Shown: in pieces, positions 57,751 to 62,663 of the stretch | Layout: the number at the start of each line of letters is the position of its first letter | Numbering within the stretch: position 1 is the first letter of the stretch | DNA from: Sulfurimonas sp. endosymbiont of Alviniconcha boucheti | GTDB lineage: Bacteria; Campylobacterota; Campylobacteria; Campylobacterales; Sulfurimonadaceae | Reading direction: 5' to 3' | Assembly: GCA_021766785.1 (NCBI GenBank) | Contig: JAICBP010000083.1 | Coordinates: 349,016-411,782 of the forward strand | DNA length: 62,767 nt | Notes under the pieces: generated by a model | What the model saw: only the letters and a program-made list of their open reading frames with translations | Told to the model about the DNA's origin: nothing | The model's database searches: none | Translations under genes and position numbers: made by a program

Positions 57751-60471
57751 CTAAAAATGATTACTAAAATTTCTAAAGTTATCGGACTGAACAAGCTTCA
57801 CTTCAGTTGAAATCTCTTCAAAGTGCTTTTTAGCACAAGCTATTTTTGATGACTCACTTGTCTTTATATCTAAGCCTAAATCACTTCCTTTACTCTCTAC
57901 TACAAAGTAAAGTTTTTCTTGATTTTGCTGTTCTATCACTACAGCCCAATCTGGATTGTATGAGCCTAATGGAGTATTTATCTTAAACCAATTTGGTAGT
58001 TTTGTAAAGAGCTTGACTCTCTCATTTTGGTTAAACGCCAAGGCAAAGTTTTTCTCAACATTAGAGTCATAAACAGTATGAGTATATATAGATTTGTCTG
58101 TTTCATTTTTTACCATATTTGATGATAGGTAGCCATAGAGTTCTTGATTTTCAAAACACTCTTGAGCATAGTAAAACTCATCTCCTAACTTCTGATATTT
58201 TATACCATCAATGACAAACATACTCATCACTTTTTTTATGATTTTTATCGCACCATCTATGAACCTTTGAGGGTTGTTTTGAAACCCTTGTAGTTTGTCA
58301 CTTTTTATCAAAATATCTACAATAACTCTTCTTGTAAGATTTGTTTCATTTTGGATATAAGTTACAATATCAGGTAAAGTAAAATCTATAATCTCACTAT
58401 TTAATGGGTCATTTTTAATTGTATCTTCTACTATTTCTACACCAGCTTTTGTAATCTTATTTGTAGCTTTTGAGTAAATATACTTTATCTTTCCAACTGT
58501 CAAATCATTTTGTATATGCTTCACACACTCATCTATAAGTTTAGCTTCATCAAACTCTACTCTATAAGTGGTTTTATATTTTATCTGCTCCCATAGTGCT
58601 TTAAAATCGTCACTAAGATAGACCTCTTTGTTTAGAGTGATAAGTTTTTTATCATCTGCGTTTTTTATATTTATGATATCAAACTTGATTCCCTCTTCAT
58701 CCTCTATCTCTTTTTGTAAGGCTCGTGCAAAATCTTCATAACTCTCATTTGCCATTACTGTTAAAGTATTTACATCAAAGCCACGAACTCTTTGCCCATC
58801 TTGATCTACACATATACGAAGTCCTCGACCTATCTCCTGTCTTTTTTTCATAACAGAGTTAGTTTCGTTTAGAGTACAGATTTGAAATACATTTGGATTA
58901 TCCCAACCCTCTTTTAAAGCACTATGAGAAAATATAAATCTCAAAGGCTCTTCAAAGCTAAGTAGTCTCTCTTTGTTTTTCATAATCTTATCAAAAGCAC
59001 TCTCATCATCTTTATTTTTACCTGTGCTATCTTTAGCGCGACCTTTGCTGTCTTGTGCAAAATATCCATCGTGAACACTCTCTACATCATCATTATCAAT
59101 TTTCGTAAAAAGAGTTTGGTATTTTGGTCTCTTAGAGATAGTTTTAAACTCCTCTTCAAACCATAATGCAAACTTGCCTTTTATAGGGTTGTTCTGCTCA
59201 TCATAAGCTCTATAGTTAGCTACTTTATCTATAAAAAAGAGGCTTAAAACTTTTATACCTTTTTGTTTAAGTCGTAGCTCTTTATCCAAATGCTCCTCTA
59301 TTGTTTTTCTGATTTGTAGTCGTTTTATAGAGTCACTCTCTGCATCACCAATACTCTCACCAAGTTTTACAATCTCCCCATTTAAAAACTCTATATATTC
59401 ACTTTCTTTTTCTATGTAGATGTCATTTATAATATAGCCATCATAAACATCACGACCTTTTGACTTTTCGTAAAGGTCATCACCATTTTTTAGTGTTAGC
59501 ACTTTTCTCGTAGTTCTTCCACTTTGGTTCAGGTCTATCTCTACTTTTGCACTTCTAGGATTTGTTTTTACACTTACTACTCTTATGTATGCTTTGTTTG
59601 AGGTGTCTTCTAGTTGCACATTTGCTACTTCTATCTGTTTTACAAGTTGTTGCTCATAAGCATCTATAGAATCAAGTTTATACATCAGGTTAAACTTTTG
59701 TGAGTGTGTAGCACTATATCGAAGCCTACAGAGAGGATTAAGAGTCTCTATAGCCTCTTTTGCTTTTGAGGTGTTATCAACACTCTGAGGCTCATCTATG
59801 ATAAGTATAGGATTAGTCGAGGCGATAAACTCTATAGGCTTCTGCCCACCCAGTCTATCGTTTTGTCTATGTATAATATTTGCTTTTGTCTCTTTGGACG
59901 GGTCACTAAAACTTTTTCTAAAGGCATCTATATTTATAACCATAATTCTTATATCGCTACTTGTAGCAAAGTCTCTTACTTGTTCTAAGTTTGAACTATC
60001 ATATACAAAGTAATCATAAGGAGTGTTGTCAAATAGAGTTTTAAAATGCTCACTTGTTATCTCCAGAGTTTTTTTCGTTCCCTCTTTGATAGCAATAGAT
60101 GGCACAACGATTATGAATTTTGTAAAACCATAGCGTCTGTTTAACTCAAATATAGATTTTAGATAAACATAGGTCTTACCAGTTCCAGTCTCCATCTCTA
60201 TACTAAAGTCCATAGAACCTAGTTTTTTAGACTGAGGGAGTCCATTTCGTAGTTGTATCTTTTGAACATTTGCTAAAATCTCATCATCTAGTAGTTCAAG
60301 ACGATTTCCGATACCTAAGTCATCATAATCACCCATAGTTTTTTGACCTTTGCTATGCTCTCTAACAATACTAAAATTACTTTGACAAATCTCTTGCCCT
60401 TCAAATATATCTACTATGGAGCTTATTGCTCTGTCTTGATACTCTAGGTTGTTTTCAAATTGTATCTTCAT
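57751..60471 (-). CDS. res: Type III restriction enzyme R subunit (Res)
   Basis: A 906-residue, apparently intact Res: METGTGKTYVY (Walker A, 93-103), DEPQ (226-229), SAT (253-255), then the helicase core with SHSALKEGWDNPNVFQI and QEIGRGLRI, and a C-terminal PD-(D/E)xK nuclease (Asp841, Glu859, Lys861 in ESKG). Normally it needs Mod for site recognition, but no mod gene is in the window. Its ATG overlaps the abi stop (TAATG). Codons 1-18 and 329-353 are duplicated upstream. Confidence 0.9.
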   Translation of the reverse strand: MKIQFENNLEYQDRAISSIVDIFEGQEICQSNFSIVREHSKGQKTMGDYDDLGIGNRLELLDDEILANVQKIQLRNGLPQSKKLGSMDFSIEMETGTGKTYVYLKSIFELNRRYGFTKFIIVVPSIAIKEGTKKTLEITSEHFKTLFDNTPYDYFVYDSSNLEQVRDFATSSDIRIMVINIDAFRKSFSDPSKETKANIIHRQNDRLGGQKPIEFIASTNPILIIDEPQSVDNTSKAKEAIETLNPLCRLRYSATHSQKFNLMYKLDSIDAYEQQLVKQIEVANVQLEDTSNKAYIRVVSVKTNPRSAKVEIDLNQSGRTTRKVLTLKNGDDLYEKSKGRDVYDGYIINDIYIEKESEYIEFLNGEIVKLGESIGDAESDSIKRLQIRKTIEEHLDKELRLKQKGIKVLSLFFIDKVANYRAYDEQNNPIKGKFALWFEEEFKTISKRPKYQTLFTKIDNDDVESVHDGYFAQDSKGRAKDSTGKNKDDESAFDKIMKNKERLLSFEEPLRFIFSHSALKEGWDNPNVFQICTLNETNSVMKKRQEIGRGLRICVDQDGQRVRGFDVNTLTVMANESYEDFARALQKEIEDEEGIKFDIINIKNADDKKLITLNKEVYLSDDFKALWEQIKYKTTYRVEFDEAKLIDECVKHIQNDLTVGKIKYIYSKATNKITKAGVEIVEDTIKNDPLNSEIIDFTLPDIVTYIQNETNLTRRVIVDILIKSDKLQGFQNNPQRFIDGAIKIIKKVMSMFVIDGIKYQKLGDEFYYAQECFENQELYGYLSSNMVKNETDKSIYTHTVYDSNVEKNFALAFNQNERVKLFTKLPNWFKINTPLGSYNPDWAVVIEQQNQEKLYFVVESKGSDLGLDIKTSESSKIACAKKHFEEISTEVKLVQSDNFRNFSNHF
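59413..59487. repeat. 75-bp repeat R2, internal res copy
   Basis: Matches 61577-61651 with one mismatch (59470 against 61634) and covers res codons 329-353. Its partner lies in the scar ORF ahead of abi. Confidence 0.95.
60417..60471. repeat. 55-bp direct repeat R1, copy at the intact res start
   Basis: Identical to 61651-61705. It covers the first 18 codons of res; the identity ends exactly at the start codon on one side and in codon 19 on the other. Confidence 0.95.
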
Positions 60472-61325
60472 TATTTATACCCCATCATTGTTCTATCTAT
60501 ATTATATTTTACGATTAGTTTTTCTAGCCTATTTTTCCAAACATTATCTGTATCTATTATATCCATCAGATGTTCACACATAACTATCGTATTGTAAATA
60601 TTTTGCTTATTGTCAACATTCATTTTTGTATGTAAAAATTTTGGATAGGTAAAAGGGATAGGTAGTTTTCTATTCCATAGTCTTGAGTGGTGTGCTGATA
60701 TGTTTCTAATGACTGTAAGGTTGTGTAAAAAAGAGAGCAATACTTTTTCATCTAAGTTATAGTGCTTGGCTATGCTCTGTCTGTCTTTTCTTGCTTTTAT
60801 ATTATTTAGCCAGTTAGATACTTGCCCCATTGTCATAAGTTCTGCACTTATCCATAGTGGAGGCAACTCTTCTTTATACTTGGTCTTAAAATGTTTTGAA
60901 AATAGTTCTTTAGATCGTTTAAAATCTTCTTTTAGTTTTTCAATAAGAAAAGAGTGTCGTTGCTCATTATGAAAAACGGTAGTATCTAAGTGAGCAAATA
61001 ATCCATATTTACTAGATAGTTCAGTGATAAATCTATTGCGTATAGAGATTTCAATCCTCTCTATTGCATTTAACATATGAAGTCTAAACTCTCTATCAAA
61101 ATTATAAATGTTAAGTATATCTTCAAAGTAGATATTGTCTTGAAATTTACCATCTTTTTTGAAGATAAACCATACACCACTAAGTCTATAAAAGTTTATA
61201 TTTTCAAGTGTGTTTTTGGCTTTTTCTTCATTTTTAAATAGCATGCCTAATGCTTTTAAGTTTAGCATTTGCTCGTTAATAGTTAAAAATGATTTGTTAA
61301 AGGATTGTTTTTGTGAAGTTTTCAT
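60471..61325 (-). CDS. Abi_2 (AbiD/AbiF-type) HEPN abortive infection protein
   Basis: A 284-residue Abi_2-family protein. INFYRLSGVWFIFKK, DREFRLHMLNAIERIEISIRNR and LPPLWISAELMTMGQVSNWL are family pieces, and RNISAH (207-212) fits the R-X4-H site of HEPN ribonucleases. Members stop phage growth by RNA cleavage. ATG at 61325 is chosen: GAGAGG sits seven bases ahead. A hairpin hides that site, and a TATAAT lies ~55 bases ahead. Both ends are stop-start coupled with neighbours. Confidence 0.85.
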   Translation of the reverse strand: MKTSQKQSFNKSFLTINEQMLNLKALGMLFKNEEKAKNTLENINFYRLSGVWFIFKKDGKFQDNIYFEDILNIYNFDREFRLHMLNAIERIEISIRNRFITELSSKYGLFAHLDTTVFHNEQRHSFLIEKLKEDFKRSKELFSKHFKTKYKEELPPLWISAELMTMGQVSNWLNNIKARKDRQSIAKHYNLDEKVLLSFLHNLTVIRNISAHHSRLWNRKLPIPFTYPKFLHTKMNVDNKQNIYNTIVMCEHLMDIIDTDNVWKNRLEKLIVKYNIDRTMMGYK

Positions 61326-61331
61326 TAAACG

Positions 61332-61369
61332 ACCTCTCGGGGTGAGCATTGTAAAGAGGCTTGAGAGGT
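61332..61369 (-). promoter_or_regulatory. Hairpin hiding the abi ribosome-binding site
   Basis: On the minus strand ACCTCTC (61369-61363) can pair exactly with GAGAGGT (61338-61332), which contains the GAGAGG ribosome-binding site of abi. A second CCTCT lies in the loop and could pair instead. Ribosomes finishing the upstream scar ORF would open the stem. Confidence 0.55.
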
Positions 61370-61381
61370 ACTGTTAAGAGT

Positions 61382-61387
61382 ATTATA
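61382..61387 (-). promoter_or_regulatory. Candidate -10 box of an internal abi promoter
   Basis: Minus-strand TATAAT, overlapped by TATACT just upstream, about 55 bases before the abi start. No good -35 is seen. It would give an abi-res transcript whose leader is the hairpin above. Confidence 0.4.
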
Positions 61388-61576
61388 GTATAAAATTTCT
61401 AAATTGTTGCTTTGTTTTATAAATAATAACTTCATGCTCTTTCCTCCAAGTAAACTACTATCATCTTTTAATTCATCCGTTAATTTAAAAATTAGATTGT
61501 ATCTTGTCGCATTAAAAGAGGCACTATCTGGAATATCTATCGCTGATGATTCAAGATCAATTTCAAATACTTTTTT

Positions 61577-61651
61577 TATGTAGATGTCATTTATAATATA
61601 GCCATCATAAACATCACGACCTTTTGACTTTTCATAAAGGTCATCACCATT
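61577..61651. repeat. 75-bp repeat R2, copy in the scar ORF
   Basis: Copy of res codons 329-353 directly joined to R1 at 61651. The two source segments share a single base at the join, so the deletion was illegitimate. Confidence 0.95.
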
Positions 61652-61705
61652 GGAGCTTATTGCTCTGTCTTGATACTCTAGGTTGTTTTCAAATTGTATC
61701 TTCAT
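61651..61705. repeat. 55-bp direct repeat R1, copy at the scar ORF start
   Basis: Identical to 60417-60471. This is probably the original location of the res start, since it overlaps the end of DUF1016 by 17 bases in a coupled manner. Confidence 0.95.
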
Positions 61706-62663
61706 CTATAATCTCCAACTCATTTTTCAACTCTTCTAATGATGGAAGATAGAGTTTGTACTTGCTTGCAAATATCTGCTCATTATCTTGGGGCAATGTA
61801 TATTTCACAACACTATCATTTTTCTCACTACATAGTAAAATACCTATGGTTTTATTATCATCATCATTTTTTACTTCTCTATCAAAATAGTTTACATACA
61901 TCTGCAACTGTCCCAAATCTTGATGTTTGAGTTTTCTTGTCTTTAGCTCTATAACTACATAACATTTTAAAGGAATATTGTAAAAAACTAAGTCTGCATA
62001 AAAGTTATCTTCACTTAAAGTAAGTCTGTATTGTCTTTTTACAAATGCAAATCCACGACCAAGTTCAAGTAAAAACTTCTCTAAATGCTCAATGAGCTTA
62101 GATTCTAAAAGTTTCTCATCCCCTTGTTTGACTTCATCTAACCCTAAAAAGTCTAAAATATAGGGGTCTTTTACAATCTCTTTTGGTTTGAGAGGTGTTG
62201 TAGCTAACTTTTTTGGCTCATTCTCAACTCTAATCATAGTGTTGTTTTGAACTGCTTTTTGCAACTCTCTTACACTTAAATGTTGCTCTATGGCATAGCG
62301 TTCATAAAATTTAAACTCTTTGTCATCAAGTCGTATTAAGTAGGTGTAGTGTGTAAAAGAGAGTTTAAAATTTAATTGGTCAGTCAGTGATTGGCTTTTT
62401 ATATAAAACTTCCTACAATCTTTTAAAGTCGATAAAGAAAACCCTTTTCCATACTTCAAAGTAAGCTCTTTAGAGAGATTTTCAAGAACTTTTTTACCAT
62501 ACTTTGCTTTAACGTCACCATGTTGCTCATCTTCCACTATAAGCTTACCAAGAAGATAGTAACTCTTTGTAGATTCATTGTATATAGCCTCTACTATATT
62601 TTTTCTACCATTGTCTATGATAGAAATGGCTTTGTTTAGTAAATCACTATTTTGTAACTGCAT
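61689..62663 (-). CDS. DUF1016 (YhcG-type) PD-(D/E)xK nuclease-family protein
   Basis: A 324-residue protein: N-terminal DUF1016 helical domain (YYLLGKLIVEDEQHGDVKAKYGKKVLENLSKEL; FSLSTLKDCRKFY) and a C-terminal nuclease domain LELGRGFAFVKRQYRLTL...YADLVFYN...VVIELK with Asp224, Glu239 and Lys241. The family is often found inside restriction-modification loci. ATG at 62663 is preferred; a TTG at 62678 overlapping the upstream stop (TTGA) is an alternative that adds five residues. Confidence 0.85.
   Translation of the reverse strand: MQLQNSDLLNKAISIIDNGRKNIVEAIYNESTKSYYLLGKLIVEDEQHGDVKAKYGKKVLENLSKELTLKYGKGFSLSTLKDCRKFYIKSQSLTDQLNFKLSFTHYTYLIRLDDKEFKFYERYAIEQHLSVRELQKAVQNNTMIRVENEPKKLATTPLKPKEIVKDPYILDFLGLDEVKQGDEKLLESKLIEHLEKFLLELGRGFAFVKRQYRLTLSEDNFYADLVFYNIPLKCYVVIELKTRKLKHQDLGQLQMYVNYFDREVKNDDDNKTIGILLCSEKNDSVVKYTLPQDNEQIFASKYKLYLPSLEELKNELEIIDEDTI

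Follow-up and report, generated by a model that had tools for sequence, protein, structure and literature searches.

The window, by which we mean the whole stretch of 62,767 nucleotides that was analyzed, lies on contig C81 of a draft genome of 83 contigs, and carries on its minus strand, in order of transcription, a DUF1016 gene, a 126-codon ORF, abi and res (Table 1). The helicase and PD-(D/E)XK domains of the res product are those of a type III system, and the Res of a 96%-identical relative matches EcoP15I Res (4zcf). The mod gene of the operon was located beyond the window on the same contig (L004:4138-6030, minus strand); it is partly N-masked, and its readable ends match the mod of G026 at 98% and 91%. 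Just past the end of the window is a partly masked GmrSD/DUF262-like gene, which was named by its resemblance to the homologue in G118. A transposase-like gene, split into two ORFs of 203 and 127 aa, was also seen close to the contig end, on the upstream side of mod (L004 6980-8070).

Table 1. Positions of the genes, RNA motif and res-derived segments in the window.
Feature	Positions	Strand	Remarks
res, type III restriction subunit, 906 aa	57751..60471	-	Pfam PF04851, PF19778
abiF toxin gene, abi (Abi_2, HEPN RNase)	60471..61325	-	Pfam PF07751, E 1.8e-50; PADLOC AbiD
126-codon remnant ORF	61325..61705	-	ends TAATG at abi start
Probable native leader ORF of AbiF module	61325..61435	-	ATG at 61435 after GGAGG; ends TAATG at abi start
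abiF antitoxin RNA motif	61332..61368	-	Rfam RF03085, 47.1 bits (gathering cut-off 37)
TATAAT, -10-like hexamer	61382..61387	-	14-19 nt upstream of abiF RNA; spotted by eye
Stretch of untraced origin, ~140 bp	61436..61576	-	open in remnant-ORF frame
Scar, internal res piece (codons 329-353)	61577..61651	-	vs 59413-59487, 1 mismatch; fused in frame to 55-bp copy
Scar, upstream copy of first 55 bp of res	61651..61705	-	shares 17 bases with DUF1016 3' end (61689-61705)
DUF1016/YhcG-type PD-(D/E)XK gene, first cassette	61689..62663	-	Pfam PF06250 + PF17761; PADLOC PDC-S02

An earlier note on this DNA had described an RNase-type gene placed in front of an unbroken res. A HEPN RNase toxin gene does stand there, but res is intact only in part: its frame is open but is short by 81 aa (243 bp) after residue ~600 (window ~58670), between the helicase and nuclease domains, and the absent segment occurs in Res relatives of 93-97% identity. 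Because G233 (L128) and G073 (L132) are likewise without the region of this segment, with different junctions, the short form of Res may be functional. The loss is an event separate from the res remnant described below.

The abi protein aligned to PDB 8vz6 (E 2.6e-34) with RNISAH opposite RNSCCH and both catalytic residues preserved, and this R and H (R215 and H220, spaced as R-x4-H) were invariant across four aligned proteins. The ~200 bp that the earlier note left as of unknown origin could be explained in part, as the abiF RNA lies inside them, directly upstream of the toxin gene as in AbiF systems, and abi is therefore the toxin of an AbiF RNA-toxin module; the remaining ~140 bp are still untraced. 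The true start of abi is probably 61325 rather than 61349, because codons 1-8 would fall within or just past the RNA. No terminator was found between the RNA and the toxin gene at this locus. In C. difficile an abiF-family RNA neutralises the toxin through direct binding (PMC12373285), and the module here is probably a type III-like RNA-toxin system, in which the RNA would bind and silence a HEPN RNase whose action halts the cell upon phage disturbance. It shares with the characterized systems, RCd22-AbiFCd of C. difficile (PMC12373285) and PbAbiF (PDB 8vz6), the protein family, the catalytic R and H, and an RNA of the same family directly upstream of the toxin. It differs from RCd22 in having one RNA motif and not two, and further from the characterized systems in the lack of a recognizable terminator behind the RNA, in an RNA stem that holds the putative Shine-Dalgarno sequence of the toxin and in an ORF that traverses the RNA up to the toxin start.

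The duplicated start of res

The first 55 bp of res occur as an exact direct repeat around abi (60417-60471 and 61651-61705, spacing 1234), far exceeding chance. This duplication had been reported in the earlier note, as had the 17-base overlap of the upstream copy with DUF1016 and the 75-bp res piece behind it, and all three were confirmed. The junction of the 55-bp copy to the codon-329 piece amounts to an in-frame deletion of 930 bp, at which 1 bp is common to both sides, and the second junction, past res codon 353, sits in an A-run (CATAAAAAAAG vs CATAGAAAAAG). Both junctions are in frame, and the resulting remnant ORF is open across them to the abi start. Pfam, PADLOC and NCBIfam assigned it to no family; a Cas3fv match (E 0.015) was discounted, and a 40% match to the res of relatives past codon 353 was judged to be spill-over from a 27-residue match. 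The ~140-bp stretch had no DNA match in the family or in any fetched locus, and a protein search of the family gave a best E of 0.006, which we did not count as a match.

The remnant differs from res at 1 of ~131 positions in total (none in 55 bp and one in ~76 bp), while res is ~5% diverged from its nearest relatives (L181 and G026). At 5% divergence ~6 differences would be expected, with a probability of one or none near 0.01, barring gene conversion. By this comparison the event is young on the scale of res divergence, as the earlier note had implied. That note had also named an arrangement with diverged repeats in relatives as the sign of an old, stable gene order; we looked for such an arrangement and found none, as no relative had res fragments in the mod-res interval, these being confined to this genome, and no other genome had copies of the res 5' end around abi. 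A crossover between the two 55-bp copies would excise 1234 bp and make DUF1016 lead straight into res again.

Between the repeats there are only the res piece, the untraced stretch, the abiF RNA and abi. Insertion of a mobile element with target-site duplication was rejected, given that the insert contains neither a recombinase ORF nor terminal repeats. A repeat of 55 bp also exceeds the usual length of target duplications.

Cargo between mod and res in related operons

Relatives of res were sought in 228 genomes of the family and 27 loci from a genome collection, and the best were taken with their surroundings; the named relatives are Sulfurimonas and other Campylobacterales, mostly MAGs. The defence cargo between mod and res differed in nearly every one of them. 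It consisted of SIR2-HerA in G026, GmrSD-type/NsnAB with PDC-S39 in G032, a PtuA-like AAA with PIN in G004 (and, by ORF sequence, in the same gene order in L181), AlbA_2 in G038 (with a partial relative in G233), AAA_13 with DUF2130 and RhuM or KilA-N in G215 and G197 (and L183 by ORF sequence), PemK in G188 (and G165 by the same ORF sequence) and a PifA-like KAP protein in G155. In G147 and G118 the cargo is AbiF, directly before res and without any copy of res, and in the distant homologue L179 the mod-res gap is only 33 bp. The last cargo gene often stops no more than a few bases from the res start codon; that of G038 overlaps res by 17 bases, equal to the overlap of DUF1016 with the res copy here. 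On these gene orders, the mod-res interval in this family is a place where defence genes turn over. A view of abi as a unique intruder into one gene start was accordingly not supported, since the whole interval is a cargo site and AbiF precedes res without duplication in G147 and G118.

In the limited collection of literature searched, we found no description of such a site between the mod and res genes of type III operons. In Campylobacter, of the same phylum, the rlo genes are variable defence-like genes between the subunit genes of hsd loci, which are of type I, whereas the cargo here lies in a type III mod-res interval. RNase genes inside restriction operons are also known, as in EcoprrI, where a type IC restriction-modification operon contains the gene of the anticodon nuclease PrrC (PMC3874165, PMC12707154). 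The present locus resembles EcoprrI-PrrC in having a suicidal RNase gene within a restriction-modification operon, but the operon is of type III and not type I, and its toxin, an Abi_2 HEPN RNase, comes with a dedicated antitoxin RNA, whereas PrrC is a nuclease known to be kept in check by the restriction enzyme. The present locus marks the interval between mod and res in a type III operon as a place in which to seek new defence genes.

Scars of a comparable kind were identified in two relatives. In G215 (L119, gap positions 1352-1399), a 48-bp copy of the mod 3' end lies between two cargo genes, and is closest to the mod allele of G032 (89.6%, vs 83% to its own mod). In G173, an abiF RNA and the first codons of abi are stranded between DUF2130 and RhuM.

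Origin of the res remnant

In L181, which has the order mod-DUF1016-AAA-PIN-res, the DUF1016 protein is 91% identical to that of the window. The last ~60 nt of the two genes are identical, and the DNA sequences part precisely at the ATGA of the gene that follows, namely the res copy in the window and AAA in L181. This boundary bears out the suggestion of the earlier note that DUF1016 once ran directly into res. Together with the AbiF-res adjacency in G147 and G118, it makes both cargos look like cassettes that each abut res, and the remnant is what would be expected where two such loci had merged. We therefore consider it probable that recombination left the duplicated res start as a scar, marking the seam between the DUF262-DUF1016 and AbiF cargo cassettes in a type III operon. 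The earlier state would have been mod-DUF262-DUF1016-res, to which a second module, the abiF RNA and AbiF toxin, itself adjoining res, was then added. Most likely one side of the module was joined by homologous exchange in res and the other by illegitimate joining in the old res, at the A-run near codon 353. Codons 1-353 of the old res would thereby have been stranded upstream of abiF, and a later in-frame deletion of 930 bp would have cut this stretch to 55 + 75 bp. While the parts, their identity, the variability of the cargo and the cassette boundaries can be read directly, we infer from them the order of the steps, the donor and the function.

No genome was found that had either of the proposed parental arrangements together with this res allele. 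Mosaicism of res was considered as a trace of the crossover and rejected, as identity to G026 showed no step (~87-99% in every 50-codon window, mean ~95%). A donor would consequently need to have carried a near-identical res, a result that also fits duplication in place, and the donor cannot be named because ~140 bp are untraced. Under duplication in place, the 5' part of res would have been doubled within one genome, abiF acquired between the two and the first of them left to decay, with no abi-res donor required. The remnant pieces, at 100% and ~99% identity, are indeed closer to the res of this genome than to any other allele. We nevertheless think this account rather unlikely, in that AbiF already adjoins res in G147 and G118, and abi, had it been inserted between two copies, would have had to form anew by chance the TAATG overlap of its stop with the res start seen here.

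An assembly artefact, in which two coexisting strains, one with DUF1016-res and the other with abiF-abi-res, were merged into one contig via the 55-bp repeat, appears very improbable. The genome is a draft of 83 contigs and the length of the repeat is that of a common assembler k-mer, yet the junctions with the codon-329 piece and with abiF are outside the repeat, cannot stem from it and must have been read; the usual reads are also longer than 55 bp. Interpreted as a seam of two cassettes, the locus is a readable trace of the stacking of defence genes in a restriction operon, and the traces left in such operons include cassette joints that are precise to the gene start, as well as scars from anchor genes (res 5' and mod 3') and from an antitoxin RNA.

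A probable leader ORF through the antitoxin RNA

The 3' stem of the abiF RNA contains GAGAGG (61333-61338), a few bases 5' of the toxin start, which is likely the Shine-Dalgarno sequence of abi. In predicted folds of several loci CCUCUC pairs with GAGAGG, with folding energies that are unexceptional relative to shuffles. Fourteen Campylobacterota abiF loci (window 61325-61435, L115, L117, L118, L155-L160 and L189-L192), which represent ~7 lineages and are not fully independent, were examined. Their RNAs have a 3' stem with a Shine-Dalgarno-like sequence (GAGAGG and similar), and in every locus an ORF coming from upstream extends across the antitoxin RNA as far as the start of the toxin gene. 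The frame that stops there (at ATGA, TTGA, TAATG or TGATG) was the longest of the three upstream frames in all 14. Shuffle values for its length at single loci ranged from 0.004 to 0.2, and its openness is weakened as a coding signal by the abiF motif itself, which has few stops in any frame. The evidence that the leader ORF is coding is thus good but not conclusive. Outside the phylum, five plasmid AbiF loci from other phyla were compared; three of the five had a sub-threshold abiF match, in none was the hairpin immediately before the annotated toxin start, and the Rhizobium plasmid locus had a T-run behind the stem. Hexamers resembling TATAAT were seen by eye upstream of the abiF RNA in most relatives as well as in the window, where the hexamer is absent from the list returned by a consensus promoter scan.

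Since the antitoxin hairpin includes the putative toxin Shine-Dalgarno sequence and the upstream ORF stops at the toxin start, translation of the toxin would likely be low from its own promoter and raised by ribosomes arriving from the upstream operon. We tentatively propose that the Campylobacterota abiF RNA may also serve as the ribosome-binding site of the toxin and the tail of the leader ORF, such that upstream translation would open the antitoxin and turn the toxin on, and that at this locus the leader would have been extended to the duplicated res start, wiring the toxin to translation of the restriction operon. The layout makes coupling of the AbiF toxin to upstream translation a testable proposal.

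It is more doubtful that the remnant was itself selected as a functional leader, with the res start providing an ORF that would be translated from DUF1016 across the abiF RNA up to the toxin gene and would tie the toxin to operon translation. Such selection would address why the scar has persisted and is compatible with its origin as a cassette seam, and in its favor are the 126-codon frame, open over both junctions and ending in TAATG, and the ORF, longest of three frames each time, that ends at the toxin start in the 14 loci. Against it, the native leader start with GGAGG is already present at 61435, so that the res part may contribute nothing, and a 930-bp deletion would be in frame one time in three by chance.

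Among the relatives, two abiF RNAs are orphans that retain no more of abi than its first codons (up to 28), one being the stranded RNA in the mod-res interval of G173 (L117, 1080-1179) and the other lying beside an RHS-type locus in G215 (L118, 2477-2610). These orphan RNAs could act as stand-alone antitoxins.
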